From NCBI GenBank assembly GCA_947455455.1, contig CANGOE010000018.1, positions 1-43,315 of the forward strand: a DNA stretch of 43,315 bases. The letters are read 5' to 3'. Position numbers and translations under genes: made by a program. The stretch is from Hyphomicrobiales bacterium. Lineage in GTDB: Bacteria; Pseudomonadota; Alphaproteobacteria; Rhizobiales; Beijerinckiaceae. Position 1 is the stretch's first letter. The number at the start of each line of letters is the position of its first letter. Under the pieces are notes generated by a model. The model did no database searches, had not been told where the DNA came from, and worked only from the letters and a program-made list of their open reading frames with translations. Of this stretch, positions 22,843 through 41,729 are shown one piece after another.

Positions 22843-24114
22843 ATGAGCAAGCCCTTTTGGTGGGAAGCCGCCCCGCGCGAGGCCGAACAGGCCTTGAGCC
22901 TTCCGGCGCAAGCCGATTGTGTGGTGGTCGGGGCGGGCTATGCGGGCCTGAGTGCCGCATTGACGCTGGCACGGGCCGGACGCTCGGTGGTTGTCTGCGA
23001 AGCCGGTCCCCCCGGATTTGGGGCTTCAAGCCGGTCGGGCGGCATGATCGGCCACGGCCACCGGCTGTCCTATTCCAACCTGATTGCCTTACACGGTACG
23101 GCCAAAGCCAAAGCCCTGATCGGCGAAGGCATGGCCTCGCTGGATTATGTGCAACATCTGATCGCCAGCGAGGGCATCGATGCCCGGTTGAGCATGGTCG
23201 GCCGCTTACGAGGTGCATGGACGCAGGCCGATTACGACACCATGGGCCGCGAAGCCGATATGTTGACGCGCGATCTCGGCCTGCCGGTCGATGTGGTGCA
23301 AAAGGCCGATATGCGCAAGGAAATTGCCACCGACAGCTATCAGGGCGGATTGATTTTCCACAGCCATGGCGGCGTGCATCCGGCCCTTTTCCAGCAAGGC
23401 TTGCTGGCCGTGGCGCGTGCGGCAGGCGTGCAGATTGCGGGCTTTACACCCGTCACCCGCATCGACAGGCAAACCGAGCACGCGCTTGTCCATACCCCGC
23501 GCGGCACCATCACGGCCCGTGAGGTGATCGTGGCCACCAACGGCTATTCCGCCAGACCCGTGCTCGATTTTGCCCGCCGTCTGGTGCCGATGCCGAGTTT
23601 TCTGATTGCAACCGAAGAGATCGGTGAAAACCGCGTGCGCGATCTGATCCCCAATTTGCGGATGATTGTCGAAACCCGAGAAAAGCATCTCTATTACCGC
23701 CCTTCGCCTGACGGAAAGCGGATCATTCTGGGGGGCCGCGCCGCCTTGCACCCGATTGAACTGGAAGAGGCGAAGTTGCGTCTGCGCAAGGAGCTGGTCG
23801 CGCTGTTTCCCTCGCTGGACCAGACCGCCATCACCCATGTCTGGACCGGCAATATCGCCATGACGCGCTCCGACCTGCCCGGCATCGGCAAGCTCGGCGG
23901 GCTCTGGTATGCGCTGGGGTGCAACGGATCGGGGGTCGCGCTGATGCCCTATCTGGGGCACAAGCTGGCATTGAAAATTCTGGGTGATCGGGAGGGTGAT
24001 ACGGCCTTTGACGATATCCCGTTCAAGGCCATTCCGTTTTATGATGGCCGTCCGTGGTTCCTGCCGCTTCTGACGGCTTGGTATCGCGGACGCGATTGGC
24101 TGAGAGGCAATTAA
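22843..24114 (+). CDS. FAD-dependent amine/amino acid oxidase (DAO family, PuuB-like)
   Basis: A 423-residue DAO-family flavoprotein. The dinucleotide motif VVVGAGYAGLSAALTLARAGR lies at 27-47, followed by FGASSRSGGMIGHGH, the second flavin contact loop resembling gamma-glutamylputrescine oxidase (PuuB). C-terminal landmarks are HVWTGNIAMTRSDLPGIG and YALGCNGSGVALMPYLGHKLA. The ATG at 22843 follows GGAG at a suitable distance; an in-frame start at 22795 is less likely. It oxidises a C-N bond of an amine or amino acid, giving peroxide or passing electrons on; the exact substrate is not fixed. It is divergent from the ABC operon, which may import the substrate. Its TAA overlaps the soxG stop in a shared TTAA. 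Confidence 0.88.
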   Translation: MSKPFWWEAAPREAEQALSLPAQADCVVVGAGYAGLSAALTLARAGRSVVVCEAGPPGFGASSRSGGMIGHGHRLSYSNLIALHGTAKAKALIGEGMASLDYVQHLIASEGIDARLSMVGRLRGAWTQADYDTMGREADMLTRDLGLPVDVVQKADMRKEIATDSYQGGLIFHSHGGVHPALFQQGLLAVARAAGVQIAGFTPVTRIDRQTEHALVHTPRGTITAREVIVATNGYSARPVLDFARRLVPMPSFLIATEEIGENRVRDLIPNLRMIVETREKHLYYRPSPDGKRIILGGRAALHPIELEEAKLRLRKELVALFPSLDQTAITHVWTGNIAMTRSDLPGIGKLGGLWYALGCNGSGVALMPYLGHKLALKILGDREGDTAFDDIPFKAIPFYDGRPWFLPLLTAWYRGRDWLRGN

Positions 24115-24674
24115 CGGCTGACAAGGATGCCGTATTGTCCGGCAGAGGTGTGGACCCAGTGCCACAAATCTCCGGCCATCGAGCGCATGCAGGACAGCTC
24201 GAACACCCCATCCGCATCCACCGAAATCTGGATCGACAGCGGACCCAGCAGGGTCACCCGACCGGAACCGGCAGGAAAGACGCGCGGATCGCAATCGATC
24301 ATCACGCCTTTGGCCAGCACATCAAAGACATGCGGACCGGACAGCTGTAACGAGGCCCGCGAGCCGGTCTGGTCGATGACGCTGGCTTGCGTGCCGAACA
24401 TCCCCTCAAGCCATGGCACGGAGGGGGCGGTGGCGCTCTCGATGAAAAACTGATCCGGCGTTATCGGCATAACCATCACACCATCGCGCCAGTGGCGCTG
24501 GCCCAGCACCAATGGCGCGGTCATGGATTCCCCTGCCGGACATATCACAGTGGCGGCAAAACCGTGATCGAGCAAACGCACCTGCAGACCCGGCGCATCA
24601 ACCGCTTTGCCGTAGGAACCGGCATCGACAAGACCCTGCCAGACCGAGCGTCTCGCATAGAGCGGCTTATCCAT
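24111..24674 (-). CDS. soxG: Sarcosine oxidase, gamma subunit
   Basis: A 187-residue protein recognised by position after soxA and by SoxG-like features: DAPGLQVRLLDHGFAATVICPAG, QTGSRASLQLSGPHVFDVLAKGVMIDCDPRVFPAG, and a C-terminal SMAGDLWHWVHTSAGQYGI. SoxG has a fold distantly related to the T-protein/TrmE family and helps hold the heterotetramer together. The ATG at 24674 follows AAAGGAG and overlaps the end of soxA by 8 bp; a longer in-frame start at 24788 lies well inside soxA. The gene ends in TTAA shared with the convergent oxidase gene. Confidence 0.9.
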   Translation of the reverse strand: MDKPLYARRSVWQGLVDAGSYGKAVDAPGLQVRLLDHGFAATVICPAGESMTAPLVLGQRHWRDGVMVMPITPDQFFIESATAPSVPWLEGMFGTQASVIDQTGSRASLQLSGPHVFDVLAKGVMIDCDPRVFPAGSGRVTLLGPLSIQISVDADGVFELSCMRSMAGDLWHWVHTSAGQYGILVSR

Positions 24675-27633: not shown

Positions 27634-27884
27634 GAGCCGACCCTCTCACAGCGCGCGATCGAGACAGGGCCGAGCGCATGAGTCCGGGTGTCGCGTTCGA
27701 CCGCCAGCCATGTGCGGCAGACCGTATGGAGCCAATATTCCTTGTGCCAGCCCAGCGGATTGTCACGCTGGTAGACGTAATCGGCCATCTCGGATTCCAC
27801 CGCAGGGCGTGTCAATGTCGCGTCGCCGCGATAGGTAAATTCGCGGGAATCCCGCTCACCGCAATAAGGGCATGGAAGGCGCAT
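27630..27884 (-). CDS. soxD: Sarcosine oxidase, delta subunit (altered zinc motif)
   Basis: An 84-residue SoxD. CPYC at the N-terminus (5-8) supplies two zinc cysteines. The segment YVYQRDNPLGWHKEYWLH is typical. The second half of the zinc site normally reads H-x3-C, but here it is HTVC, H-x2-C, one residue shorter. The reading frame continues normally through to the stop, so this is not a simple frameshift. Zinc may bind with altered geometry. It is placed between soxB (14-bp gap) and soxA (4-bp overlap), the conserved B-D-A-G order. The ribosome-binding site is weak (AGAGAAA), so translation may rely on coupling to soxB. Confidence 0.92.
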   Translation of the reverse strand: MRLPCPYCGERDSREFTYRGDATLTRPAVESEMADYVYQRDNPLGWHKEYWLHTVCRTWLAVERDTRTHALGPVSIARCERVGS

Positions 27885-27898
27885 GGAACAGGCTTTCT

Positions 27899-29149
27899 CT
27901 AATGCAAATTGGGTTGGGCACCGACGCCCTTTTCATCGATCAGCGCCCCATGGGCGAACCGATCCAGCCGCAACCGATCCGCCACCGCATGCGGTTGGTC
28001 GGTGGCAATCAGATGGGCAAAGCAAAAGCCCGAGCCGGGTGTGGCCTTGAAGCCGCCATAGCACCAGCCGGCATTGAGATAGAGATTGTCGACCGGCATT
28101 TTGTCGATGATCGGCGAACCATCCATCGACATGTCCATCACTCCGCCCCATGAGCGCAACAGCCGCACCCGCCCCAAAGCAGGCCATAATGCCATCGCCG
28201 ATTCCATGACATCCTCGACAACCGGCAGATTGCCGCGTTGGGCATAGGAGTTGTACCCGTCGATATCGCCACCAAAGACCAGCCCGCCTTTGTCCGACTG
28301 GCTGACATAAAAATGGCCCGCACCGAATGTCACCACCGTATCGATCATCGGCTTGAGCGCTTCGGACACAAAGGCCTGCAGGACATGGCTTTCTATCGGC
28401 AGGCGCATCCCGGCCATGGCGGCAAGCCGTGAGGAATGGCCCGCACCCGCCAAAGCCACCTTGCCCGCCCCGATGAAACCCTTGGTGGTTTCAACACCTG
28501 TCACCACACCTTTGTCGATGCGCAGACCCGTGACTTCGCAATGCTGGATAATATCGACCCCGCGCCGATCCGCCGCCCGCGCATAGCCCCAAGCCACCGC
28601 ATCATGGCGCACCGTGCCGCCCCGCTTTTGCAACAGACCGCCCTTGATGGGAAAGCGCGCATTGTCGAAATTGAAAAACGGCACAAAGGCCCGCACCTGA
28701 TCGGCATCGAGCAATTCGGCATCCACCCCGTTGAGGCGCATGGCGTTGCCGCGCCGCACATAGGCATCACGCTGGCCATCGGTGTGGCACAGGTTCAACA
28801 CGCCGCGTTGCGACACCATCGCGTTGAAATTGATATCCTGTTCCAGCCCTTCCCAGAGCTTGAGCGACAATTCGTAAAAAGCGGTATTGCCGGGCAACAG
28901 ATAGTTGGAGCGGATAATGGTGGTGTTGCGTCCGACATTGCCGGAACCGACATAGCCTTTTTCCAGCACGGCAATGCGGCCGACATTGTGGTGCTTGGCG
29001 AGATAATGGGCCGTTGCCAGCCCATGGCCGCCGCCGCCCACAATCACCACATCATAATGGGCGGCAGGCTCTGGGCTCCGCCATGCCGGACTCCAGCGAC
29101 TTTGTCCCGACACGGCATTGAGCAACACACTGGCAAGTGAATAACGCAT
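27899..29149 (-). CDS. soxB: Sarcosine oxidase, beta subunit
   Basis: A 416-residue DAO-family subunit carrying the flavins of heterotetrameric sarcosine oxidase. FAD motif VVIVGGGGHGLATAHYLAKHHNVGRIAVLEK is at 34-64. RHDAVAWGYARAA near 181-193 contains His182, at the position that carries covalent FMN in known enzymes. GSGNVGRNTTIIRSNYL is also typical. The C-terminal half has KATPGSGFCFAHLIA near the substrate pocket. It is first of the four sox genes and follows the DMGDH-like gene by 53 bp, with AAGG before the ATG. Sarcosine is oxidised at the FAD and electrons reach oxygen through FMN. Confidence 0.96.
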   Translation of the reverse strand: MRYSLASVLLNAVSGQSRWSPAWRSPEPAAHYDVVIVGGGGHGLATAHYLAKHHNVGRIAVLEKGYVGSGNVGRNTTIIRSNYLLPGNTAFYELSLKLWEGLEQDINFNAMVSQRGVLNLCHTDGQRDAYVRRGNAMRLNGVDAELLDADQVRAFVPFFNFDNARFPIKGGLLQKRGGTVRHDAVAWGYARAADRRGVDIIQHCEVTGLRIDKGVVTGVETTKGFIGAGKVALAGAGHSSRLAAMAGMRLPIESHVLQAFVSEALKPMIDTVVTFGAGHFYVSQSDKGGLVFGGDIDGYNSYAQRGNLPVVEDVMESAMALWPALGRVRLLRSWGGVMDMSMDGSPIIDKMPVDNLYLNAGWCYGGFKATPGSGFCFAHLIATDQPHAVADRLRLDRFAHGALIDEKGVGAQPNLH

Positions 29150-29202
29150 GAGATGACCTTAACCCGTCCGCCGACAAATTCCATATACAATCCACAAAAG
29201 CA

Positions 29203-31638
29203 TCACATCCGCATTTTAAGACCTTTGGGATCATAGATCGGCTCTGATTGCACAGTGGCCGGGCGGCGCTCGCCCAGGATTTCGATTTCCCAGACGGCTT
29301 GGCCTTTTTCTGCGCCGACATGCTCGCTGGCGACATAACCCGTCGCAACCGAGCATTGGCTGTAATGGCAATAACCGCCAGAGGTGATCCAACCCACCAC
29401 AACCCCATCTTTCCAGACCGCCTCATCCCCCAGGGCATCGGCATCCAGTGCATCGATGATAAAGTTGACGCGCTGACGCTTCGGACCCTGTTCCTGCTCC
29501 AGAAGGGCGGCGGTGCGACCGATGAAATCGGGTTTTGACAGATCGACAAACCGGCCCAGACCAGCCTCGAAGGGGCCGTAAATCGGGCGGTATTCACGCG
29601 CCCAGGTGCCAAAGAATTTCTCGCGTGCCAGTGACAGCAAGGCCCTGCTGCCGAACGGCGTGATGGCGTGGCTTTGTCCCGCTTTCCACAAGGCCTCGAA
29701 CACGGCAACCTGCTGGTCGGGACGCATCCATACTTCATAGCCGGTTTCACCGGTAAAGCTCACCCGCCCCACCATGACCCGATGCAAACCCACACTCATG
29801 GAGGGACGGAAATCCATAAACCGGAACGCCTCGTTCGAGACATCCTCATCGGTCAACTGCGCCAGAAGCTCGCGTGCTTTGGGTCCGGCAATGCCGATAC
29901 CCACCAGATCCAGCCCGAAGGCCCGCAAGGTCACATCATCAACGCCAGACAGATGGTGTTGGAACCAGCGCATGTGATATTTTTCAGCCGCACCCGCGCC
30001 AAACACCATGAAGCGATCAGCCGCCAGTCGGGCCACGGTAAAATCACCGATCAGCTTGCCTGCATGGTTGAGCATGGGCGACAGCGCCATGCGGCCGACC
30101 CGCGGCAATGTGTTGGCCACAATCTTGGAGAGCCAGCGCTCTGCCCCTTCTCCGCTGACCTCGTATTTGGCAAAGGTCGAGGTATCGGAAATCCCGACCC
30201 CTGTGCGCACCGCATGGACTTCGGCTTTGACCGCATTGAAGTCACTGGAGCGGTGGAAGGAAAACGCATCCTTGGTGCCGTCGGGAGAGAACCACAAGGG
30301 TGTTTCCATACCCCAAGCCTCGCCCATCACCGCACCCAGACCCAGCCAGCGGTGATAGAGCGGCGTGGTCCGCAACGGCCGTCCGGCTTCCAGCTCCTCG
30401 TTGGGAAAGCGCACGCGGAAACGGCGGCCATAATTTTCGACCACTTTGGCATGGGTATAAGCCGGCGTGGCCCAATCGCCGTAGCGGGCCACATCCATGG
30501 CCCAGACATCAAAGCCCGGATCACCGTCGACCATCCAGTTCGACAAAGCCAGACCGACACCGCCGCCTTGCGAAAAGCCGGCCATCACTCCGCAAGCCAC
30601 CCAGTAATTCGGCAAGCCATTGATGGGGCCTACCAGCGGATTGCCATCGGGAGCGAAGGTGAAGGGGCCGTTGATCACCTGTTTGATACCGGCGGTCTTG
30701 AAGGCAGGGAAATGGTTGAACCCCACTTCCAGATTGTCGGCAATCCGCTCCAGATCATTGGGCAACAAAGTCGGGCCGAAATCCCACGGGGTCTGTTTCG
30801 GGCTCCACGGCACGCCATGCCGCTCATAAGTGCCCAGCAACATGCCGCCGCGCTCCTGCCGCATATAGATTTCGCCGTCGAAATCGACCGCATGCAACAC
30901 CATCTTGCCGGTGGCGGCATTGATCTCGGCCACTTCGGGCATATCCTCGGTGATCAGATATTGATGCTCCATCGCCAGAATGGGCAGTTCCAGACCGACC
31001 ATCCGGCCACATTCGCGCGCCCACAACCCGCCGCAATTGATAACATGTTCGCAGGTGATACTGCCTTTGTCGGTGTCCACCCGCCATTGGCCATCGGGCA
31101 GGAGCACGGTCGCCAGCACCCGCGTCTGGGTATGGACCGACGCTCCCGCCTTGCGTGCCGCACCGGCAAAGGCATAGGTGGTGCCGTTGGGGTCGACATG
31201 GCCTTGTATCGGATCATACATCGCACCGACAAATTGCGTCTTGTCGATCAGCGGCAACAGGCGCTCGGCTTCGTCCAGCGAGACCAGTTCCAACTGCATG
31301 CCCATATAACGGCCTTTGGAATGGATATTCTTGAGCCATTCCCACCGCGCCTCGGTAGCGGCCAGCATCAGGCCCTCTGTCATATGCAAGCCGACAGACT
31401 GGCCGGAAATTTCCTCGATTTCCTTGTAAAGATTGATGGAATATTGCTGTAGTTTCGAGACATTGGGATCGCCGTTGACCGTGTGCATCCCGCCTGCCGC
31501 ATGCCAGGTCGAACCGGAAGTCAGTTCGAGGCGCTCGATCAGCGCCACATCATGCCAGCCTTTTTTGGTCAGATGGTAGAGCACGCTCGCTCCCACCACC
31601 CCGCCACCGATCACCACCGCCCGATAATGGCTTTTCAT
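29203..31638 (-). CDS. FAD-dependent oxidoreductase with GcvT domain (dimethylglycine dehydrogenase-like)
   Basis: An 811-residue two-domain flavoprotein. The N-terminal DAO domain has VVIGGGVVGASVLYHL (8-23) and LTSGSTWHAAG with His46, the residue that carries covalent FAD in dimethylglycine dehydrogenase/oxidase. The C-terminal part, from about 430, is GcvT-like (YHRWLGLGAVMGEAWGMETPLWF, RTGVGISDTSTFAKYEVSG, and later MVGRVSFTGETGYEVWM), which binds tetrahydrofolate. Length matches dimethylglycine and sarcosine dehydrogenases. Upstream of soxB in the same direction, it probably makes sarcosine from dimethylglycine, with soxBDAG taking the next step. Related enzymes act on other N-methyl compounds. 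The ATG at 31638 has a weak GAGAG ribosome-binding site; a start at 31671 is possible. Confidence 0.88.
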   Translation of the reverse strand: MKSHYRAVVIGGGVVGASVLYHLTKKGWHDVALIERLELTSGSTWHAAGGMHTVNGDPNVSKLQQYSINLYKEIEEISGQSVGLHMTEGLMLAATEARWEWLKNIHSKGRYMGMQLELVSLDEAERLLPLIDKTQFVGAMYDPIQGHVDPNGTTYAFAGAARKAGASVHTQTRVLATVLLPDGQWRVDTDKGSITCEHVINCGGLWARECGRMVGLELPILAMEHQYLITEDMPEVAEINAATGKMVLHAVDFDGEIYMRQERGGMLLGTYERHGVPWSPKQTPWDFGPTLLPNDLERIADNLEVGFNHFPAFKTAGIKQVINGPFTFAPDGNPLVGPINGLPNYWVACGVMAGFSQGGGVGLALSNWMVDGDPGFDVWAMDVARYGDWATPAYTHAKVVENYGRRFRVRFPNEELEAGRPLRTTPLYHRWLGLGAVMGEAWGMETPLWFSPDGTKDAFSFHRSSDFNAVKAEVHAVRTGVGISDTSTFAKYEVSGEGAERWLSKIVANTLPRVGRMALSPMLNHAGKLIGDFTVARLAADRFMVFGAGAAEKYHMRWFQHHLSGVDDVTLRAFGLDLVGIGIAGPKARELLAQLTDEDVSNEAFRFMDFRPSMSVGLHRVMVGRVSFTGETGYEVWMRPDQQVAVFEALWKAGQSHAITPFGSRALLSLAREKFFGTWAREYRPIYGPFEAGLGRFVDLSKPDFIGRTAALLEQEQGPKRQRVNFIIDALDADALGDEAVWKDGVVVGWITSGGYCHYSQCSVATGYVASEHVGAEKGQAVWEIEILGERRPATVQSEPIYDPKGLKMRM

Positions 31639-31775
31639 CTCTCGCTTACCCGTCCCGACGCACTTGCACATGATTGCTCCGCATCATTGCCTTGGCCAAT
31701 GCGGATGTCAAAGAGCGGTTGTATCCGACGGCAAGATCGGTCAGATTGGCGCATCATCAATCAGGGAATATCGGC

Positions 31776-32462
31776 ATGGCTTTGTTGGGCAAAGGCGTTT
31801 TGGCAATCTGGAACGGGATGACACCCGGTTTCGAGGACGAATTTACCCGCTGGCATGTGCAGGAACATATTCCCGAGCGGGTCGGCTTGCCCGGTTTCGA
31901 GCGCGGCAGACGCTATGTCGCAGTGGACGGACATCCGCAATTCTTCAATTTCTACGAAACCCAAACCGTCGCCGATCTTGAATCGCCCGCCTATAAAGAG
32001 CGCCTCAACAATCCGACACCGTGGACGCTGGCCACCGTCAAACAATTCACCGACACCTCGCGCACTTTGTGCAACGTCGCCCTGACACGAGGGCGCGGCG
32101 AAGGTGTGTTTATCGAGACCATCGAGCTTGAAACCACCAAAGGCGATGACGTTTTCACCGCGACCTTTGAATCCGCGCTTGACCATCTGGCGGGTCTGGA
32201 TGGCGTGGTCGGCCTGCATCTGTTGCGCGGACAGATCGGGCAGGACCAGACCATGACAGAGGAAAAGAAATTACGCGGCGCACCCGATCGGGAAGTCGCC
32301 TGGCTCCTGCTGATCGAGACCATCGACCCCGAACCCCTGATCGTGATCCGCGAACACGCGCTGACCGACACCTTCCTGACCCAGATCGGCTCGACCAAGA
32401 TCAAACGCGGCATCTATCGTTTGCAATATAGTCTGGGCAAGACGGAATTGTTGCGGGGGTGA
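31776..32462 (+). CDS. Uncharacterised protein, probable dimeric alpha/beta-barrel (EthD/DUF4286-like)
   Basis: A 228-residue soluble protein without signal peptide or membrane segment. It appears to have two related halves. The first opens GKGVLAIWNGMTPGFEDEFTRWHVQEHIPERVGLPGF and continues QFFNFYETQTVADLESPAYKERL; the HVQEHIPER pattern recalls EthD/dimeric alpha-beta barrel proteins. The second starts near 115 (IETIELETT) and repeats the strand-helix pattern. I do not recognise a characterised homologue. The ATG at 31776 follows AGGGAA; an in-frame extension to 31674 has no ribosome-binding site. It diverges from the DMGDH-like gene across 137 bp, so it may belong to that regulon, perhaps in handling a breakdown product. 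Confidence 0.7.
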   Translation: MALLGKGVLAIWNGMTPGFEDEFTRWHVQEHIPERVGLPGFERGRRYVAVDGHPQFFNFYETQTVADLESPAYKERLNNPTPWTLATVKQFTDTSRTLCNVALTRGRGEGVFIETIELETTKGDDVFTATFESALDHLAGLDGVVGLHLLRGQIGQDQTMTEEKKLRGAPDREVAWLLLIETIDPEPLIVIREHALTDTFLTQIGSTKIKRGIYRLQYSLGKTELLRG

Positions 32463-32522: not shown

Positions 32523-32635
32523 TCTGCCCTGCTTCCTGTTCGCGGCAAATCGGGCCTAAAGGCTTGAGCCGGTGACATTATCCGTGCCAATAATCGGATC
32601 AGTTGTTTATCCGCTTTGCTGACCCGATTGGCCCG

Positions 32636-33835
32636 ATGTCACCCACCCAGACCCCGCTTCCGGCACGATTGCACAGTGAAGGCACGCGCACGGCGGCGTT
32701 TATCGTGCTGTTCACCTGCGATGCCATATCGCGGGCGATGCTGTTGTCGGTGGTGCCACTGCAGGCCTATGAGCTGTTGGGCGAGGCCCGCACGGTCAGC
32801 CTTGTCTATTTCTTTGTGGCCTTTACCGGACTGTTTACCATTCTGGTTATTCCCACGGTCCTCAAAGGCCTAAGCCGCAGGCTTGCCACCTGTCTGGCAC
32901 TCGGCGCGCAAATATGCAGTGTGGCTTTGCTGGCATCCCACACCACCGCCGGATTGGTGTGCGGATTGATCATGCAGGCGCTGGCCTATGCCTCGATGGA
33001 TGTGATGCTGAGCCTGTATATGCTCGATCACATTCCGCGCCGCGAGCTGAACCAGTTCGAGCCCAAGCGCATGATGATTGCCGGTGGCGCCTATGCCCTT
33101 TCGCCATGGATCGGTGTGGCCCTGCACCAGAATATTGCGCAATGGACCACCTATGCGGTGGCCGCGATGGCCTCACTGACCTTGATGACAGTGTTTCTCG
33201 CCATGCGACTGCCCGCGAGCCAGACCATGGCTTCGGATACTGTCGCAGGCACCAATCCGATCCGGTTGGCCGGCCGGTTTATCAGCCAGCCGCGTTTGCT
33301 GTTGTCATGGATTCTGGCCTTCGGGCGCAATGGCTGGTGGGTGATTTTTTTCATCTATATCCCGATTTATGTCACCAGCGTCGGCTATTCTCCCGCAGTG
33401 GGCGGAGCGCTGGTCACCATCGGGATGTTGCCGCTGATCCTGACCCCGAAATGGAGCAAATTGGGGCGACGCTTTGGTGTCCGCAACCTGCTGAGTCTGG
33501 GCTATGGGATGGCGGGGACCGGCAGTATCGCGGCCGCCATTGCCGCCTCGCTGGAGATGCCGCAAACCAGCATCGGCCTGTTTTGTCTGGCGGCTCTGTT
33601 TGCCTGCATGATCGACGGGGCAGGCAATGTGCCGTTTTTGCGGGCTGTGCGCCATTATGACCGTACGGCCATGACCTCGATTTTCATGACCTTCCGACAT
33701 ATCAGCCCGATTGTCTTTCCCGGTATCATGGCCTTTGTGCTGTCGTTTCTGCCGCTTCCCTTTGTCTTTGTGACCAGCGGCGTGCTGACCCTGACCATGG
33801 CGGTGTTTTCGCGCTTTCTGCCGCGAAGCCTGTAG
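32636..33835 (+). CDS. MFS transporter
   Basis: A 399-residue membrane protein with about 12 hydrophobic helices and a very short cytosolic N-terminus. It has FEPKRMMIAGGAYALSPWIGVAL in the middle and RRFGVRNLLSLGYGMAGTGS after the central loop. It belongs to the major facilitator superfamily, but the subfamily is not clear to me. The ATG at 32636 is preferred to an in-frame TTG at 32603; neither has a strong ribosome-binding site. It converges with the cocE1-binding protein operon and shares the small 3' gap with that operon's terminator. The substrate is unknown. Confidence 0.82.
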   Translation: MSPTQTPLPARLHSEGTRTAAFIVLFTCDAISRAMLLSVVPLQAYELLGEARTVSLVYFFVAFTGLFTILVIPTVLKGLSRRLATCLALGAQICSVALLASHTTAGLVCGLIMQALAYASMDVMLSLYMLDHIPRRELNQFEPKRMMIAGGAYALSPWIGVALHQNIAQWTTYAVAAMASLTLMTVFLAMRLPASQTMASDTVAGTNPIRLAGRFISQPRLLLSWILAFGRNGWWVIFFIYIPIYVTSVGYSPAVGGALVTIGMLPLILTPKWSKLGRRFGVRNLLSLGYGMAGTGSIAAAIAASLEMPQTSIGLFCLAALFACMIDGAGNVPFLRAVRHYDRTAMTSIFMTFRHISPIVFPGIMAFVLSFLPLPFVFVTSGVLTLTMAVFSRFLPRSL

Positions 33836-33893: not shown

Positions 33894-35141
33894 TCAATTT
33901 TCGAGATTTTTTGCAGGCGGATAATCGCGGGAATAAACCGGATTAGCCAAAAATTCCTTCGGATTGTAGGTCCAGAACTGCGAGAGATTTTCGTAGGTTT
34001 TGACCACGGAATTAACCAGACGGCCTTCCTTGCGCACAACCTTGCGGATGTAGACATTGCCGACGACATTGCCATATTCGTCAAACGACACCGGGCCACG
34101 GCAGGTCTCAACCTTGGTGGCGCGCAGGGCTTTCATCAGCGCGTTCTTGTCTTCGACATTGCCGTTGATCGCCTTGATGGCGGCTTCGAGAATGGCACCG
34201 TTGGCATAGGTGGCCGCACCGTAGAAGCCCGGATCATAGCCCGCTTCCTTGCGGAAGTTGGCGGCGAACTGCTTGTTGATCGGGTTGTCGAGTTCGGCCG
34301 AATACCAGCAGGAGGTGATGGTACCAAGGGCTTCGTCACCCATGTTGCGCAACACCGATTCATCGAGATGGGTCATGCCGCCAACGATCGGCAACTTGTC
34401 TTTCAGACCATATTCGACAAATTGACGGGTGAAGCGGAAGCCGTTGGAGCCTTCGAAAGCCGAGAAGATCGCATCAGCCTTCAAGTTCAACTGGGCGATA
34501 TAGGTGGCATAATCGGGCACGGTCAGCGGCGCCCAGAGCTTCTGGACGATCTTGCCGCCGTTTTCTTCGAACACGCGCTGGAAACCGGCGCACATTTCAT
34601 GGCCGTAAGCGGTGTCGGAACCGATGGTGATGATCTTCTTGTACTTCAGTTCCTTGGCGCAATAATCGGCCAGCGGGCTGGAGCATTGCGACGAGGTCGA
34701 CGTCGCACGCACGAACCATGGGTTCGGCTTGCGCTGTGTCATGTCTTCGGCGGCGGCCACAGACAAAGTCGGCACGCCTTTTTCTGCGATATAGTCCTGA
34801 ATGGCCAGCGCCTCGAAAGCCGCTAACGGACCGATATAGCAATGCACCTTGTCGCGCTCGAGCAGTTCTTGTGCCTTGGTGCGGGTCTGTTGCGGGTTGC
34901 TGGCGGTATCAGCCGAGAAGATTTCGACCTTGCGGCCGGCAATCATATTGTTGCGCTCTTTCATATACATGAGCAGACCGCGTTCCATATCGAGACCACC
35001 GGAGGCCAGCGGACCGGTTTTGACGGTCAGAAGGCCGATGCGGATCGGCTCCGAGGATTGGGCGTTGACACGTGTGCCAACCAGCGAAGCCAGACCGGCT
35101 GTCGCTGCCCCTTGAACCAAAGTACGCCGTGAAAGTGTCAT
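33894..35141 (-). CDS. Periplasmic binding protein, LivK/urea type (family 4), with Tat signal
   Basis: A 415-residue branched-chain amino acid-type binding protein. The N-terminus has a twin-arginine motif (SRRTLVQ, Arg5-Arg6), a hydrophobic stretch and VNAQ for cleavage around 28. The mature part starts EPIRIGLLTVKTGPLA, as in LivJ/UrtA and amide-binding proteins, and includes AFEALAIQDYIAEKGVPTLSV and ITIGSDTAYGHEMCAGFQRVF. AGGAGGA precedes the ATG. It has no permease or ATPase neighbours, so it either joins a distant LivHMGF system or acts otherwise, for example as a sensor. It follows cocE1 by 41 bp on the same strand and is closed by a strong terminator. The ligand is probably the substrate or product of the hydrolase, but that is inference. 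Confidence 0.9.
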   Translation of the reverse strand: MTLSRRTLVQGAATAGLASLVGTRVNAQSSEPIRIGLLTVKTGPLASGGLDMERGLLMYMKERNNMIAGRKVEIFSADTASNPQQTRTKAQELLERDKVHCYIGPLAAFEALAIQDYIAEKGVPTLSVAAAEDMTQRKPNPWFVRATSTSSQCSSPLADYCAKELKYKKIITIGSDTAYGHEMCAGFQRVFEENGGKIVQKLWAPLTVPDYATYIAQLNLKADAIFSAFEGSNGFRFTRQFVEYGLKDKLPIVGGMTHLDESVLRNMGDEALGTITSCWYSAELDNPINKQFAANFRKEAGYDPGFYGAATYANGAILEAAIKAINGNVEDKNALMKALRATKVETCRGPVSFDEYGNVVGNVYIRKVVRKEGRLVNSVVKTYENLSQFWTYNPKEFLANPVYSRDYPPAKNLEN

Positions 35142-35182
35142 AGTCGTTCCTCCTGTTGCAGTTTATTGAAGTCGTTATGCGC

Positions 35183-36913
35183 TCATCCGATGATCGGCAG
35201 CAGGACATAATTGTCATGCCTTGGATCGATGTGGATTGTTGTGGTTCCGCCAAATATCGCCGGCGGACGATCTCTCGGGTCATCATGCAGGAACGGGCCG
35301 CAACCTAGCAACTCGTTCTTGAAGTTGGACAGTTTTTTTCCGGTGGATTCCTGCCAGATATAATCGCGCCCGCGAATACTCAGGGCCACTCGATGACCGG
35401 CTGGCACGACAATGCCGCTGGGCCAGAATTCCACCTCGACCTCGACAGGCACGCCCGGCACCAGAGGCTGTTTCTCGTCATGGGTGTGATAGGGCCGGTA
35501 GGGCTGTGTCAGTGCGGGGTCGAGCTTTCTGTGGGAAGCTCGCAACCAGCCCTGGAAAATCGGCGTATGCGGATCAATCGCACCCGGAAAAGTCACCTCG
35601 CGCAGATCGGGGGTAAACACCCTGACCACGAGGAACAGATCGGCATCCTCGGTGCTCGAGGAAATCGTCAATTTGGCGGCGACCGGACCGGTGATTTCGG
35701 TCTCATGGTCCAGCGGCTCGGACAGGAAGGTCAGGCCATCGCCCATCGCGGCGAAGGACACCGCCTTTTGGCTTTTGGCTGGCTCGAGTGACAGGGTCTG
35801 GCGATGGGGATCAAGGTGGAACTTGGTCCATTGCGTGCGGGCCAACGGCCATTCATGCTCGTCGCGTTCGACAAAATGATCGGTGTGGCGGACGTTGAGT
35901 TTGACGCGCGGTTGCTGGTCCCAGCCGTTTTGATCGCCCTTGAGGTAATAGTCGAAAAACCGCAATTGCAGATCACGGCCATAATCGGTGTAAAAATGCG
36001 TCCAGTGTTCCAGACCGTGGATTTCCAGCCACTTCTCTTTCGAAGCCGCCCTGACGAAACCCTCGCAATTGCCGCGCGGATGCAAACCTTGCCCGCCCCA
36101 GTTGGAGGCTGACAAGAACGGCACTTCGACATTCTCCCACACCGGCGAACGATCCTTGTGCCACTGGTCATCGAGCGGATGCGCCAGAATTTCATCGCCG
36201 AAGCTCAACAGGTTTTTGGCCAGCTCGTCGTCGCTCAAGGTCTCGTCACCACAGACCAGCAGGCCGTTGAGTTTGGAAGTCGGCCCACGTACGCCACGGC
36301 CATATTGCACAGTCTTGACCTGCATATCGTACCAGTTGGCAAAGAAGGTGCACATGATCCCGCCGTGATAGGCCCCGTCGCGATAAAAATCGGCAAAGCC
36401 TTCCCAGATGCACATGGCGGTCAGATGCGGCGGCTTCAACGAGGCCACATGCCACTGGTTACTGCCATAATAGGAAATACCGTTCAGCCCCACTTTGCCA
36501 CTCGACCATGGCTGGACACCTGCCCATTCGATGCAGTTGTAATAGTCCTTGGTTTCGCGTGGTGAATAATGGTCGATAAAGCCGGGAGAACGGCCCGCAC
36601 CACGTGAGTCAACGCGGATGCAGATGTAGTCATGCGGCACCCATTTTTCCGGATCGACCACTTCCCAGTTCTGGTATTTGTTGCTCGATCCATAGGGCAC
36701 ATCGGGATGGGCCGCGATCATTTCCGCCCAGGCACTCGGATAGCCGTCCTGAAAGGCCAGCCCCTTGGCATAGGGACCATAGGTGAGCAGAACCGGATAT
36801 TTGCCGGCCTTGATCGGACGGAAAATATCGGCTTTCAACACAACGCCATCATCCATCGGAATTTCGACATCCCAATCAATTGCCATGCCGTCCTGAATGA
36901 CTGTCTTGACCAT
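35183..36913 (-). CDS. CocE/NonD family hydrolase, paralog 1 (X-Pro dipeptidyl-peptidase S15 type)
   Basis: A 576-residue alpha/beta hydrolase with a C-terminal jelly-roll domain (from about 370: GLTFLSEPLDHETEITGPVAAKL, the XPDX_C entry motif). The nucleophile elbow is GLNGISYYG with Ser147. Candidate catalytic His303/306 lies in HGLEHWTH. The canonical Asp of the GWYDxF loop is not seen; the aligned segment reads NWGGQGLHPRGN (271-282). There is no signal peptide, so it is probably cytosolic. The family cleaves esters and amides, including cocaine esterase and acylated beta-lactams. It has about 58% identity by eye in many blocks with the gene at 38828-40567. AAGGA overlaps a palindrome just upstream of the ATG. 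It is in one operon with the binding protein. Confidence 0.88.
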   Translation of the reverse strand: MVKTVIQDGMAIDWDVEIPMDDGVVLKADIFRPIKAGKYPVLLTYGPYAKGLAFQDGYPSAWAEMIAAHPDVPYGSSNKYQNWEVVDPEKWVPHDYICIRVDSRGAGRSPGFIDHYSPRETKDYYNCIEWAGVQPWSSGKVGLNGISYYGSNQWHVASLKPPHLTAMCIWEGFADFYRDGAYHGGIMCTFFANWYDMQVKTVQYGRGVRGPTSKLNGLLVCGDETLSDDELAKNLLSFGDEILAHPLDDQWHKDRSPVWENVEVPFLSASNWGGQGLHPRGNCEGFVRAASKEKWLEIHGLEHWTHFYTDYGRDLQLRFFDYYLKGDQNGWDQQPRVKLNVRHTDHFVERDEHEWPLARTQWTKFHLDPHRQTLSLEPAKSQKAVSFAAMGDGLTFLSEPLDHETEITGPVAAKLTISSSTEDADLFLVVRVFTPDLREVTFPGAIDPHTPIFQGWLRASHRKLDPALTQPYRPYHTHDEKQPLVPGVPVEVEVEFWPSGIVVPAGHRVALSIRGRDYIWQESTGKKLSNFKNELLGCGPFLHDDPRDRPPAIFGGTTTIHIDPRHDNYVLLPIIG

Positions 36914-36922
36914 TTTTTCGTC

Positions 36923-36934
36923 CTTGAATTCAAG
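36923..36934. promoter_or_regulatory. Perfect 12-bp palindrome in cocE1 leader
   Basis: CTTGAATTCAAG lies 9 bp upstream of the cocE1 ATG and overlaps its AAGGA ribosome-binding site. It shares CTTG....CAAG half-sites with the gntR operator palindrome at 8803-8814. It may be a regulator site for this gene and, across the 105-bp divergent gap, for the plus-strand hydrolase. Confidence 0.4.
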
Positions 36935-37018
36935 TGCCTCTATTTAGTGTCTTGTTTTATGCCCATAAATCAGCAAGTTAAGCGCAACCAAAAAACCGGA
37001 GCGCTAAGGGAGAACATC

Positions 37019-37846
37019 ATGTTGCAGATGGAAATGATCGAAATCGCCACCGACAGCGAACCGATGCACGGGCTGTTCTATCCCGCGCAGGGCGCGTGTC
37101 GCGGTGCCGTCATGCTGTTGCACGGCAACTGCCATAATTTCTATACCGGCCCTTCGCGTTTCCTGCCGCCTGTGCTGACCCAAGCGGGTTTTGCCTGTCT
37201 GGCATTCAACCGCCGCGGTCATGATATGGTGGCCTCCACCCATGGCCGCGAGATCGGCGGCGGGGCATTCCAGACCTCGGCGCAGGCGATTGCCGACAAC
37301 AATCTGGCCGCCCTCTGGCTCAAGCAACGCGGTTTCGATGCTCCCATTCTGGTCGGCCATAGCAATGGCGGCATGCTGGCGGCCCAGCACGCGGGCGACC
37401 ATCCCGAAACGCCGCTGGCCGTTCTGCTGTCGGCCCATTGCGGCGGCAAGGACATTGCCAAGCTCAACTCGGCCAACGGCCTGTGGGCCCGCGACCGGCT
37501 GGACGAACTGACCGCGACCGCCAAAACCATGGTGGCTGAAGGGCGCGGGCGCGACTTGATGCTGTTGCCCGGCTGGTGGTGGGTGATCAGCGCCGAAGCC
37601 TTTCTGGATTATGCGTCCGGCGTGCCCGACACGGTCGACAATGCGGCGCGCATCCAATGCCCGACGCTGGTGTTGCGCGGCGATCAGGAACGAGCCGAAA
37701 TCTACCCCACCGATGCCTTTGCCGCCAAAGCGATCAGCCCGTGCACGGTGCGCGTGCTGGCCGATTGCAACCATTTCTACACCGGCCACGAGGATGCCCT
37801 CGCCGCCCTTGTGACCGAATGGATTGTCGCCCATCTTCCGGCATGA
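37019..37846 (+). CDS. Alpha/beta hydrolase
   Basis: A 275-residue single-domain alpha/beta hydrolase. The oxyanion region is VMLLHGNCHNF (31-41), the nucleophile elbow GHSNGG with Ser115, the acid probably the Asp in LRGDQERAEIY, and the base the His in DCNHFYTGHE near 248-257. An in-frame ORF extends far upstream, but the ATG at 37019 has AAGGGAG 6-9 bases before it, and the upstream part overlaps cocE1 antisense. It diverges from cocE1 over 105 bp and converges with the aldo/keto reductase, so it sits between the two CocE operons. It may cleave a second bond of the same substrate; no motif decides ester, amide or C-C specificity. Confidence 0.85.
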   Translation: MLQMEMIEIATDSEPMHGLFYPAQGACRGAVMLLHGNCHNFYTGPSRFLPPVLTQAGFACLAFNRRGHDMVASTHGREIGGGAFQTSAQAIADNNLAALWLKQRGFDAPILVGHSNGGMLAAQHAGDHPETPLAVLLSAHCGGKDIAKLNSANGLWARDRLDELTATAKTMVAEGRGRDLMLLPGWWWVISAEAFLDYASGVPDTVDNAARIQCPTLVLRGDQERAEIYPTDAFAAKAISPCTVRVLADCNHFYTGHEDALAALVTEWIVAHLPA

Positions 37847-37854
37847 GCCTTCGT

Positions 37855-37882
37855 CCCGTCCCTGCATCGACGCGGGGACGGG
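37855..37882 (+). terminator. Candidate terminator after alpha/beta hydrolase
   Basis: CCCGTCCC (37855-37862) pairs with GGGACGGG (37875-37882) around a 12-base loop, 8 bases after the stop. It is followed by CTTTGCCC, so the T-tract is poor. Confidence 0.5.
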
Positions 37883-37933
37883 CTTTGCCCTTGCCAGAAT
37901 GGATGAGCGGATCACCATCAGCGGGTCATGTCC

Positions 37934-38788
37934 CTACACATCCCATTTGGGGGCGAAAGGCGGGCTGACAATACGGCCATCGGGCTTTTTCAAGGCCGAG
38001 ATCGCCGCCATTTCCGCATCCGACAGGCTGAAATCGAACACATCGAAATTCTCGGCGATCCGTTCGGCATGCACGGATTTGGGCACAGCCACGGTTCCCG
38101 GTTGCTGAACCTGCCAACGCATGATGACCTGTGACGGCTTCTTGTTATGCGCTTTGGCAATGGCGACAATCACCGGATCATCAAAGGCCGCACCCTTGCC
38201 GATCGGGCAGAACGACGTCCACGACATGCCATGCGACAGGGTCTTGGCGCGCAGTTTCGATTGGTCGAGATAGGGGTGGTATTCGCATTGGTGGTTGGAC
38301 AGCGGCTCGCTGGCATGATGGACAGCCTCGTCGACCATCGCCAGCGTGAAGTTGGAAATCCCGATATGACGGGCATAGCCCTTGCGCTTGGCCGCGCACA
38401 GATCGGCCATGGTGTCCTTGATCGGGGTGGTCGGATGCGGCCAGTGGATCAGCAAAAGATCGACATAATCCATCTCCAGCCGTTTCAGACTGTCCTCGAT
38501 GGCGGGCAACACGGTATTGACCGCCGGATTGTCCCACTCCGCACCATGCAGAACTTTGGTGGTGATGAACAGTTCGGAACGGGCAACGCCGGAGGCGCGC
38601 ACGCCCGCGCCGACTTCCCGCTCATTGCCATACATGCGGGCCGTATCGATATGGCGATAGCCGGTCTTGATGGCCGAGACGACCGCCTTGGTGGCCTCCT
38701 CGCCTTCCGCGCGGAATGTGCCGAGACCGATGGCGGGAATGGCCAGACCATTGGCATGAACCAGAGGGGCGTGATGGGTGTTCGACAT
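37934..38788 (-). CDS. Aldo/keto reductase
   Basis: A 284-residue AKR with the complete catalytic tetrad: Asp48 and Tyr53 (HIDTARMYGNE), Lys78 (FITTKV) and His115 (LLLIHWP). The NADPH-binding loop is in VAVPKSVHAERIAENFDVFDF near the C-terminus. It reduces aldehydes or ketones using NADPH, or runs in reverse on alcohols. It is the second gene of the cocE2 operon, 39 bp after that stop. The leader has AAAGG at 8-12 bases before the ATG. An alcohol or aldehyde released by the hydrolase is a sensible substrate, but this is inferred only from linkage. Confidence 0.92.
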   Translation of the reverse strand: MSNTHHAPLVHANGLAIPAIGLGTFRAEGEEATKAVVSAIKTGYRHIDTARMYGNEREVGAGVRASGVARSELFITTKVLHGAEWDNPAVNTVLPAIEDSLKRLEMDYVDLLLIHWPHPTTPIKDTMADLCAAKRKGYARHIGISNFTLAMVDEAVHHASEPLSNHQCEYHPYLDQSKLRAKTLSHGMSWTSFCPIGKGAAFDDPVIVAIAKAHNKKPSQVIMRWQVQQPGTVAVPKSVHAERIAENFDVFDFSLSDAEMAAISALKKPDGRIVSPPFAPKWDV

Positions 38789-38827
38789 AAATCACCTTTA
38801 TTGAGAGAAGCGAGAAGAGAATAACAA

Positions 38828-40567
38828 TCAGGCTTTCGGGATCACCGGCAGCATGATCCAGTTGTCGCGATCAGGCCCGATATGGAGTGTGGTCGTGCCG
38901 CCATAGCGTGACATCGGCCGGTCACGCGGGTCATCATGCAGGAACGGTCCGCAACCACGGAACTCGTTTTTCATGTTCGACAAGCGGCCACCGCTGCCGC
39001 CGGTATAGACATAATCCTGCCCGCGTACGCTGACACCGATCCGGTAGCCCTTGGGCAGGACCAGCGAGGTCGGCCAGACTTCGATATCCACCGTGTAGAC
39101 CTTGCCCGGCTCGATCAGCTGTTTCTCGTCATGGCTGTGATAGGGCCGGTAAGGCAGGCTCTTGGCGGCATCGAGCTTGCGATGGGAGACGCGCAACCAG
39201 CCCTGCCCGATCGGCGTATGCGGATCAAGCGCACCCTGGAACACGATTTCTTTCATATCGGGCGCAAAGGCACGGACCACCACAAACAGGTCGGCATCAT
39301 CGGTGGAGGAGGAGACGTTGAGACGCATCGCCATCGGGCCGGTGATTTCGGTTTCGTGTGGCAACGGCTCGGTCACAAAGGTGAGACCATCGCTCAGCGC
39401 CTTGAAGGACACCTCTGCTGTCCCGGTTTCGGCGGCGGTCGACAGGCTACCGCCATCGGCATGCAGGTTGAAGTTGGTCCATTGCGTGCGGGGCAGGGGC
39501 CAGGCCTCCTCGATCCGCTCGACGAATTTTTCACCCGGATGGCGCACCTGCAACCGCACCTTCGGCTCGTTCTGCCATTCGTTCATATCGCCTTTGAGGA
39601 AGCGGGCGAAAAACCGCTTCTGCAAGGCCAGACCGTAATCGGTGTAATAATGGGTCCAATGTTCGATGCCGTGCACTTCGAGCCATTTATGCTCGGAGGC
39701 CGAGCGCATATAGCCTTCGAAATTGCCGCGCGGATGCAGGCCCTGCCCGCCCCAATTGGCCGCCGACAGCAAAGGCACCGTGATCTTGGAAAAATCCGGT
39801 GTGCGGCTCTTGTAGAATTCATCCTCCAGCTCGTGCTGGATCACATCGGTATAGATATCGCGGCGGTTCGAGCCCAATTCCTCGTCGGTCAGCGTGTCCG
39901 GTCCCGACACCCAATCGCCATTCATGCGCGAGCGGTGACCGCGCTTGCCCAAGCCGTTCTGCACGGTCTTGACCTGCATGTCATACCAGTTCTGCAGGAA
40001 GGTGCAGTGGATGCCGCCATGGCGGATCATGTCGCGGTAGAAATCCGCACAGCCTTCCCAGATGCACATCGCCGCCAGACCGCGCGGTTGCAACGCCGCC
40101 ACCTGCCACTGGTTGATCGCATAATAGGAAATACCGCTCAAACCCACTTTGCCGTTCGACCACGCCTGATCGGCGCACCATTCGACACAGGTCGCGAAAT
40201 CCTGCGTTTCACGTGCCGACCAATGATCGACATAGCCGGGTGAACGGCCACAGCCGCGGCTGTCGACGCGCACGCAGACATAACCATCGGGGACCCATTT
40301 TTCGGGGTCGCAGACTTCCCAGCTCTGGAAGCGGTTGGAGGAACCGGCCGGCACATCGGGATGCTGGCTGACCATGCGGTCCCAAGCGGTTTTATAGCCA
40401 TCCTCGAAATGCAACAGCTTGCCATAGGGCCCATGCGCCAAAAGCACCGGATAGCGCCCCTCTTTCAGCGGGCGAAACACATCGGCGCGCAACACAAGTC
40501 CGTCATCCATGGTAATGGCGACATCCCAATCAATCCGCATGCCTTCCTGAACCGAGTGGCGTTCCAT
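38828..40567 (-). CDS. CocE/NonD family hydrolase, paralog 2
   Basis: A 579-residue paralog of the gene at 35183-36913, aligned nearly end to end: WDVAITMDDGLVLRADVFRP at the N-terminus, RVDSRGCGRSPG, and CGPFLHDDPRDRP at the C-terminus. Ser147 lies in GLSGISYYA; the Gly that usually ends the GxSYxG elbow is Ala here. The same NWGGQGLHPRGN segment replaces the canonical Asp loop, and HGIEHWTH holds the likely His. There is no signal peptide. GGGAGAG precedes the ATG. It leads an operon with the aldo/keto reductase. The differences in the elbow and lid region suggest that the two paralogs act on related but different substrates or steps. Confidence 0.88.
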   Translation of the reverse strand: MERHSVQEGMRIDWDVAITMDDGLVLRADVFRPLKEGRYPVLLAHGPYGKLLHFEDGYKTAWDRMVSQHPDVPAGSSNRFQSWEVCDPEKWVPDGYVCVRVDSRGCGRSPGYVDHWSARETQDFATCVEWCADQAWSNGKVGLSGISYYAINQWQVAALQPRGLAAMCIWEGCADFYRDMIRHGGIHCTFLQNWYDMQVKTVQNGLGKRGHRSRMNGDWVSGPDTLTDEELGSNRRDIYTDVIQHELEDEFYKSRTPDFSKITVPLLSAANWGGQGLHPRGNFEGYMRSASEHKWLEVHGIEHWTHYYTDYGLALQKRFFARFLKGDMNEWQNEPKVRLQVRHPGEKFVERIEEAWPLPRTQWTNFNLHADGGSLSTAAETGTAEVSFKALSDGLTFVTEPLPHETEITGPMAMRLNVSSSTDDADLFVVVRAFAPDMKEIVFQGALDPHTPIGQGWLRVSHRKLDAAKSLPYRPYHSHDEKQLIEPGKVYTVDIEVWPTSLVLPKGYRIGVSVRGQDYVYTGGSGGRLSNMKNEFRGCGPFLHDDPRDRPMSRYGGTTTLHIGPDRDNWIMLPVIPKA

Positions 40568-40905: not shown

Positions 40906-41595
40906 TCAGGCCGCTTTGCCGAGGCTTGCGAACAGGCCGCGTCCATCAATGCCGCCGACCAGCGAATCGATCAGGTTTTCGGGATGCGGCATCATGCCGA
41001 GCACGCGCAGATTGTCGGAATAGATCCCGGCAATGTCATGGATCGAGCCGTTGGGATTGCTCGCGCCGCCGCGCTGGCCCTGCGCATCGCAATAGCGGAA
41101 GGCCACGCGGCCTTCACCTTCCAGACGCGCGATGGTCTGGTCATCGGCGATGTAATTGCCTTCGCCATGCGCGATGCAGACCTTGACCACCTGCCCCGCC
41201 TGATAGGCTGAGGTGAAGGCGGTGTCGTTGCGCTCGACCAGCAGATGTTGCATCCGGCAGACAAAGCGCAGATCGGCATTGCGCATCAGGATGCCGGGGA
41301 GCAGGCCGGATTCCACCAGAATCTGGAAGCCGTTGCAGATGCCGAGCACAAGACCGCCGCGTGCGGCATGGGCGCGCACCGCATCCATGATCGGCGCACG
41401 TCCGGCAATCGCGCCGCACCGCAGATAGTCCCCATAGGAAAATCCGCCCGGCAACACGACCAGATCGGTGCCTTGCGGCAGATCATGATCGGCATGCCAC
41501 ACCGCCGCCGGAGCCTTGCCGGTCGCCTGCGCCAAAGCCTTGACCACATCCTGCTCGCGGTTGGAACCGGGGAAGGTAATGACTGCGGATTTCAT
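40906..41595 (-). CDS. purQ: Phosphoribosylformylglycinamidine synthase, glutaminase subunit
   Basis: A 229-residue class I glutamine amidotransferase. The nucleophile Cys87 lies in [12 protein letters not shown] and the triad His204 and Glu206 in MMPHPENL. The [18 protein letters not shown] segment is specific to PurQ. With PurL and PurS it makes FGAM from FGAR, ATP and glutamine in purine synthesis. The ATG at 41595 follows GAAGGGG; a start at 41616 is less likely. It normally follows purS directly, but a lipoprotein gene intervenes here, and purL is not downstream. Confidence 0.96.
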
Positions 41596-41729
41596 GGGAA
41601 CCCCTTCAACGGACAAAGACTCACTCTTGCGAGCGATCCTTTATTTGAAGCATGACGCGGCAATGATCAACAGGCTTTTTGCCGTCAACCTTGCCGCATC
41701 ACGCTTATTGTCGGGAAAGCACCACTCCC

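Follow-up and report, generated by a model that had tools for sequence, protein, structure and literature searches.

A CocE-type hydrolase and solute-binding protein pair as a possible detached part of a split catabolic system in Hyphomicrobiales

The five-gene locus

The DNA described here is a stretch of 43,315 nucleotides from a Hyphomicrobiales bacterium (contig CANGOE010000018.1), referred to at its full length as the window. It is contig C18 of genome G000, which comprises 2.71 Mb in 127 contigs and is 86% complete. Five genes between positions 33,894 and 40,567 encode a solute-binding protein (SBP), two CocE/NonD-type serine hydrolases (CocE-A and CocE-B), an alpha/beta hydrolase (abh) and an aldo/keto reductase (AKR). 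The initial annotation had described this anatomy, and all five genes are indeed in place, with profile searches in agreement. The features are as follows.

32603-33835, plus strand: MFS transporter gene, facing SBP across 58 bp (convergent)
33894-35141, minus strand: SBP, HAAT-type solute-binding protein (Peripla_BP_6), 415 aa, with an RR (Tat-like) N-terminus by eye
35183-36913, minus strand: CocE-A, CocE/NonD-type serine hydrolase, 576 aa, no signal-like N-terminus seen by eye
36914-37018: divergent region between CocE-A and abh, 105 bp, in which the search found no regulatory site
37019-37846, plus strand: abh, alpha/beta hydrolase (Abhydrolase_6), 275 aa, with a GHSNGG elbow by eye
37934-38788, minus strand: AKR, aldo/keto reductase (PF00248), 284 aa, nearest NCBIfam model DkgB
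38828-40567, minus strand: CocE-B, second CocE/NonD-type hydrolase, 579 aa, of a clade other than that of CocE-A
40906-41616, minus strand: purQ, flanking gene

The intergenic gaps, 41 bp between SBP and CocE-A and 39 bp between AKR and CocE-B, are consistent with two two-gene operons, each led by a CocE paralog, as had been proposed. CocE-A and CocE-B are 60% identical and are the two CocE matches in G000. Both score above the gathering thresholds of Peptidase_S15 and PepX_C, and with 226.1 and 240.5 bits, respectively, against the curated cut-off of 66.3 for TIGR00976 (CocE/NonD), they belong to that family. SBP reaches 233.7 bits with Peripla_BP_6 (threshold 31.7) and lies under the NCBIfam cut-offs for UrtA (82.8 vs 492.75 bits) and PRK15404 (79.4 vs 477); its N-terminal RR motif is common to the relatives with aligned N-termini. 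AKR scores 240.2 bits with the DkgB (2,5-didehydrogluconate reductase) model, under the cut-off of 327. The open reading frame (ORF) listed for abh opens at 36632, and the ATG at 37019, preceded by AAGGGAG, is the likely start as judged from the sequence. No ABC permease gene was found in the window region around SBP.

Conservation and spread

The search tool places five genomes in one genus, namely G000 itself and G001 to G004. The order purQ, CocE-B, AKR, abh (opposite strand), CocE-A, SBP and MFS gene (opposite strand) is identical in G001 and G002 and is the same in G003 as far as its two contigs extend. With the five proteins 92-100% identical between the window and these three further species, the arrangement is more than chance. 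Records of the relatives that carry the cluster are titled as uncultured Rhizobiales/Hyphomicrobiales genome bins, one title being read as Lake Erken. The cluster is absent from G004, which is 100% complete: no CocE was found there, and the best matches to abh and SBP are 28% and 31% identical. The five-gene set is accessory within the genus. In G004 (C63, L133) purQ is followed by purL, in the place that CocE-B takes in the window and its three close relatives; the cluster may thus sit inserted between purQ and purL.

Outside the genus, CocE loci were drawn from the best 80 of 292. Three of these (L023, L024 and L025) duplicate contigs of the genus itself (G003:C132, G001:C11 and G002:C81, respectively) and do not count as extra genomes. 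The complete five-gene set was found only in this genus, in four of its five genomes. Relatives of SBP, abh and AKR (at least 40% identity over 200 aa) stand together beside CocE in 0 of the 77 loci outside the genus, which reach at most 10 kb from CocE and are often shorter. CocE, SBP and abh are linked, with an SBP relative of at least 45% identity at 17 of the 77 loci. That all five genes recur together as a set, which the initial annotation had looked for, is not supported by these loci. Genes at these loci were called with a crude ORF caller that overlooked some genes recovered by tblastn (abh in L028, AKR in L073, the second CocE in L062), so that the neighbourhood and tandem-CocE counts given below are lower bounds.

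The closest counterpart lies in G049, a genome of the same family and a sister genus. Its contig C7 (L104) carries an SBP 84%, a CocE-A-type hydrolase 79% and a divergent abh 69% identical to those of the window, and each of these three proteins groups with its G049 C7 copy in its tree (support 100/100 for abh). After abh follow an AKR of another subfamily (25% identical) and then LVIVD, DctP and DctM genes; no LivH or LivM relative is among the genes called in the stretch read.

The association of abh and AKR with CocE differs. Genome searches for both took in 50 of the 77 loci (49 genomes). A relative of abh is present in 15 of the 49 CocE-bearing genomes, in one copy each. In 6 of these it is no more than 10 kb away from CocE, where about 0.1 would be expected by chance; with three SAR116-like bins counted as one, the figure is 4 of 13. 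By this measure of sequence neighbourhood, abh is a true associate of CocE. Window-type AKRs occur in multiple copies (56 in all, across 29 of the 49 genomes), and the nearest relatives of the window AKR outside the cluster are copies at other places in G004 (77%), G008 (63%) and G049 (60%). A window-type AKR does lie a few kb ahead of tandem CocEs in five related Xanthobacteraceae-type bins; AKRs from the operons of such bins form a separate group in the AKR tree. Together with the other subfamily of the G049 AKR, this leaves the case for AKR as a dedicated part weak and its status as an associate of CocE doubtful, and the initial annotation's inclusion of it in a module is not supported. The AKR relative of G004 (C10, L123) has as neighbours another alpha/beta hydrolase, a class III CoA-transferase, a histidinol-dehydrogenase-type protein and a flavin reductase.

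An operon with an empty slot on contig C47

At locus L027, LivHMGF occurs together with two CocE-B-type genes and with an SBP that shares 77% identity with the window SBP. The LivH of this locus, used as a query, found among the matches listed a single LivH of 81-82% identity per genome in G000, G001, G002 and G003 (82% for the G000 copy, on contig C47) and at best 38% in G004. The binding protein had been described as lacking a permease; this holds for the region, and a cognate-looking LivHMGF is present on C47, which makes a partnership between the two plausible. In the same genome as the window, the C47 operon (L135) combines LivHMGF with nine enzyme genes in the following order.

C47, part 1: HIBADH-type dehydrogenase, LysR (opposite strand), LLM monooxygenase, PcaD-like hydrolase, PuuE-like deacetylase
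C47, part 2: LivH, LivM, LivG, LivF, Fe-S subunit, Mo-hydroxylase
C47, part 3: HIBADH-type dehydrogenase, Gfo/Idh, Amidohydro_2, TetR (opposite strand)

The Fe-S subunit and Mo-hydroxylase were named on the G001 copy, the ORF caller having merged them in G000, and LysR and TetR were named from relatives. The PcaD-like hydrolase scores 250.9 bits, just under the model cut-off of 255.85.

In the stretches read, C47 is collinear with G049:C19 (L106), up to the second HIBADH-type gene, and with G008, where the operon lies on two contigs, each broken off within the SBP gene. Identities are 84-85% for LLM, 84% for the PuuE-like protein, 84-85% for LivH and 75-78% for LivM. G049:C19 and G008 carry a CocE-SBP pair between the PuuE-like gene and LivH; on C47 this slot is empty and measures 83 bp. 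Since no gene separates the PuuE-like gene from LivH in G001, G002 and G003 either, a gap in one bin cannot explain the empty slot. The CocE-A-SBP pair of the window is exactly the two genes that the slot lacks. Operonic CocE-SBP-Liv systems of the same CocE clade and SBP family (L082, L087, L091, L094 and G049:C19) keep both genes inside the operon, whereas the window pair is detached and lies beside abh, AKR and a second CocE. CocE-SBP and Liv genes are also present in a cultured relative, Propylenella binzhouense (L041). Orphan SBPs encoded apart from transporter genes are called common in an excerpt of PMC3223731.

The two sites also tend to occur in the same genomes. Among 100 relatives, CocE is present in 11 and the LLM marker in 12 (both in 9, CocE only in 2, LLM only in 3, neither in 86), giving a Fisher p of about 6e-9; without this genus, 5 are shared among 7 and 8 (p about 2e-5), and both statistics ignore kinship. 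The LLM marker was not found in the 100% complete G004.

Phylogeny and neighbourhoods of the CocE subfamily

In a CocE tree of 113 rows, CocE-A falls in a 41-row clade (support 98) and CocE-B in an 18-row clade (96) nested in a 53-row clade (97). The tree was made by a quick method with SH-aLRT support only, leaving aside L001-L006, L014-L016, L018, L022 and matches under 1300 bases, and the program flagged some long branches. Alpha- and Betaproteobacteria, among others, are represented in both the 41-row and the 53-row clade, and the 18-row clade is made up chiefly of Hyphomicrobiales-type bins. Because CocE-A and CocE-B lie in separate supported older clades, a local duplication of cocE at the window, which had been suggested as the seed of the locus, is rejected by this tree. 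Outside the genus, CocE-A is nearest to the G049 C7 copy and then to the G049:C19 and G008 copies (99 each). The sister group of CocE-B includes the second gene of tandem CocE pairs from Xanthobacteraceae-type bins; tandem CocEs were called at no fewer than 15 of the 77 loci outside the genus, with L062 added by tblastn.

Gene neighbours were counted within ten called genes of CocE at 34 CocE-A-type loci and 43 others, with L023-L025 set aside. Of the CocE-A-type loci, at least 16 have an SBP of the window family, 13 LivM, 11 LivH and 14 Amidohydro_2, and the two HIBADH-type dehydrogenases occur in at least 18 and 16 of them; among the other loci the corresponding numbers are 3, 2, 2 and 5, with 0 and 1 for the dehydrogenases. 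Pot/Ugp-like importer genes are commoner in the other loci (13 and 12 vs 0 and 0), as are TRAP importers (6 vs 1). It follows that the CocE subfamily accompanies importers of several kinds.

Some of these neighbourhoods recur. A SAR116-type CocE neighbourhood with a Pot/Ugp-like importer is conserved in L042, L046, L048, L049 and L053; an abh relative lies downstream of CocE in three of the five, and a 493-aa protein of L048 has no Pfam match at E 0.001. In four loci of betaproteobacterial bins (L039, L050, L061 and L066), as in G049:C7, CocE adjoins an LVIVD-repeat protein and TRAP genes. Near-identical CocEs were also seen in bins labelled Thermoflexus and beta proteobacterium (L036/L037) and in bins labelled Rhodobacteraceae, Porticoccaceae and Akkermansiaceae (L079/L086/L089), which points to either mis-binned or mislabelled contigs or very recent transfer.

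A predicted relocation of the catalytic acid in CocE-A

The structural model of CocE-A (mean pLDDT 92.1) is closest to the solved fold 3ib3 (Z 43.5, root-mean-square deviation 2.1 over 518 residues, 33% identity) and also matches cocaine esterase, 1ju3 (Z 30.8, deviation 2.6 over 475 residues). Cocaine esterase CocE (1ju3, 3i2j; S15/AEH family) shares with CocE-A the S15 and PepX_C domains, the Ser elbow and the His after beta8, and its Tyr44 aligns with Tyr48 of CocE-A; identity is about 20-27%. Its catalytic triad is Ser117-Asp259-His287. In the CocE-A model, Ser147 follows beta5, Glu171 comes directly after beta6 and His303 follows beta8, and all three are invariant in 41 of 41 aligned CocE relatives. 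The Ser nucleophile and the His are thus as in cocaine esterase, but the catalytic Asp after beta7 is missing: residues 272-278 read WGGQGLH, and position 274, where the Asp would stand, is Gly in 40 of 41 relatives and Asp in one (L113). After beta6, cocaine esterase has Met141 where CocE-A has Glu.

The model therefore suggests a triad of Ser147 and His303 with Glu171 as the relocated acid. An excerpt of one paper describes the site after beta6 as the acid position of its group B, and acid migration to beta6 in many clusters of the superfamily is reported in an excerpt of PMC11878206. A relocation of this sort therefore has precedent, and the present analysis points to it for this CocE subfamily. 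Two relatives count against a general role for the proposed triad. The distant L113 has Glu171 plus an Asp at the canonical place. For SACOL2612, the Staphylococcus aureus CocE/NonD hydrolase (3ib3, 3iii) that has WEG and GLHxRG motifs in common with CocE-A, the profile alignment puts a Glu in the place of His303, so that the proposed triad is not universal. A name search for SACOL2612 in an open-access paper library returned nothing. The subfamily is spread across environmental Proteobacteria, and the family libraries used here name it only CocE/NonD; it carries a predicted change to the catalytic triad.

Relatives of the binding protein and the likely substrate class

The SBP model (pLDDT 87.1) matches 4zpj first, followed by 4ey3 (p-hydroxybenzoic acid), 4eyg (whose ligand, readable only as far as 'v', we take to be vanillate) and 4evq (4-hydroxybenzoate); leucine-type and amide-binding SBPs also match, ranked lower. 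The R. palustris aromatic-acid SBPs (4ey3/4eyg, 4evq, 4f06, 4evs) have a HAAT-type fold like that of the window SBP, which is 33% identical to 4ey3 and 4eyg; the window protein differs in that its permease is likely encoded elsewhere in the genome. Sets of Mo-hydroxylase, LLM monooxygenase, PuuE-like and PcaD/RutD-like enzymes are familiar from the hydroxylation and opening of aromatic and N-heteroaromatic rings. On the basis of the SBP matches and the C47 enzyme set, an aromatic or N-heteroaromatic acid derivative is proposed as the substrate.

Close relatives of SBP adjoin Liv permease genes in L027, L082, L087, L091, L094 and G049:C19. No SBP of the window family was found on C47 (E up to 1e-20), and others in G000 are at most 56% identical, the next closest being on contig C7. 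That protein belongs to a second system (G000:C7, L126; G000:C55, L139; G001:C123, L132; G003:C13, L124), in which Liv genes adjoin the SBP in G001 and G003, xanthine-dehydrogenase-type genes are present and no CocE occurs in the stretches read. As the Liv genes of G000 open contig C55, C7 and C55 are probably neighbours.

A probable split system

On the reading that we favour, and consider reasonably probable, the breakdown of an aromatic or N-heteroaromatic acid derivative depends on a HAAT importer and is encoded at two separate sites, of which this locus is the detached one. The exported SBP would capture a small acid and hand it to the LivHMGF permease encoded on C47; the most likely candidates are aromatic or N-heteroaromatic carboxylates and their esters or amides. 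Cytoplasmic CocE-A would hydrolyse either the imported compound or an intermediate at an ester or amide bond, and the remaining steps would fall to the Mo-hydroxylase, LLM flavin monooxygenase, PcaD-like hydrolase, PuuE-like deacetylase, Amidohydro_2 protein and dehydrogenases of C47. The CocE-A-SBP pair most likely goes back to a duplicate of the CocE-SBP pair that belonged to the operon itself. In the simplest history, this duplication preceded the separation of the two genera, after which G049 kept both copies and the window genus lost the operonic one. The genes for abh, CocE-B and AKR would have been added around the detached pair, probably widening or finishing the hydrolysis and reducing a carbonyl product.

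Several observations weigh against this reading, beginning with the statistics' neglect of kinship. The LLM marker occurs without CocE in G011 (74%), G051 (73%) and G076 (49%), and CocE without the LLM marker in G041 and G048. The LivHMGF on contig C55 of G000 (LivH 63% identical to that of L027) could also serve the window SBP. A simple string and dyad comparison found no dyads common to the window and C47 regions. In the SBP tree, made without matches under 33% identity or 1000 bases and without some repeat rows, the window SBP and that of L027 form one group (100/99), to which the operonic SBPs of G049:C19 and G008 do not belong. Since L027 joins the detached SBPs, the history is less clear from this tree, and the pair may have arrived by transfer rather than by duplication and loss.

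An alternative, which we regard as unlikely, is that CocE-A and SBP were acquired independently, for example from an L027-like donor, and that the C47 operon functions in their absence or with other, unrelated proteins. The SBP grouping with L027 would fit such an origin, as would the LLM marker without CocE in G011 and G051. Against it, the tree places CocE-A closest to the G049 C7 copy and, after that, to the operonic CocEs of G049:C19 and G008; no other SBP of G000 exceeds 56% identity to the window protein; and the empty slot lies exactly where relatives hold both genes.

Somewhat less probable still is the coherent, self-contained pathway drawn in the initial annotation, in which SBP would bind an amide or ester and the two CocEs, abh and AKR would process it one after another. 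The tight gene order conserved in four species speaks for it, as do the SBP-CocE-abh arrangement of G049, likewise followed by an AKR although of another subfamily, and the window-type AKR ahead of tandem CocEs in five Xanthobacteraceae-type bins. Yet the locus has no ABC permease, and a cognate-looking one sits in the larger C47 operon with its nine enzyme genes; the joint presence of SBP, abh and AKR relatives at none of the 77 outside loci, and the nearest AKRs at other places in G004, G008 and G049, also argue against it. The locus itself is real and conserved, and that interpretation is supported in part, in the linkage of CocE, SBP and abh, but the pathway as drawn does not stand. It is very improbable that SBP is a sensor or scavenger with no transport role and that the CocEs are general detoxifying esterases: LivH/LivM relatives were not called beside SBP in the genus or in the G049:C7 stretch read, but close SBP relatives adjoin Liv permeases at six loci and a close permease is present in the same genome.

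A broader version of the split-system reading is put forward tentatively, as a proposal that may well prove wrong. It holds that the locus belongs to an undescribed catabolic system, widespread in Alpha-, Beta- and Gammaproteobacteria, that acts on aromatic or N-heteroaromatic acid derivatives and is served by HAAT, TRAP or Pot/Ugp-like importers. In the CocE subfamily at its core, the acid would have moved from the beta7 Asp to the beta6 Glu171, and in the window genus the operon would have lost its own SBP and hydrolase and would depend on the detached pair at a second site. The open-access library searched returned nothing relevant on this system, one query being unspecific and its returns mostly unrelated.

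Shared regulation, which the initial annotation had looked to as a sign of a common module, was not found by the string and dyad comparison. A 16-bp palindrome upstream of the G049:C19 cocE has one window match with 3 mismatches, which is at chance level. An 11-base string (TATCAGCCAAT) lies upstream of both CocE-B and the C47 HIBADH-type gene; with 55 region pairs compared, it is a weak lead only.

The split-system reading replaces a five-gene pathway with a testable system in which the orphan SBP, the orphan permease and the enzyme set are all named, and for which G004 offers a natural control without the markers tested. It also illustrates that a reading of one contig can take the detached part of a system for the whole.

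Other genes in the window

The MFS gene next to SBP, kept in G001-G003, may, from its position, provide an uptake or export route for the same compounds as the SBP locus. Next to it, positions 31674-32462 hold a 262-aa ORF that is 97-98% identical within the genus, has no Pfam or NCBIfam match at E 0.001 and has a 31% relative in G004:C59. Further upstream, positions 14410-31671 form a long betaine/sarcosine-type stretch with sarcosine oxidase beta, alpha and gamma-like subunits, a DAO and GCV_T protein (a dimethylglycine-dehydrogenase-like make-up), an N-formylglutamate amidohydrolase, an Opp-type importer and an amidohydrolase with a weak HutF match.

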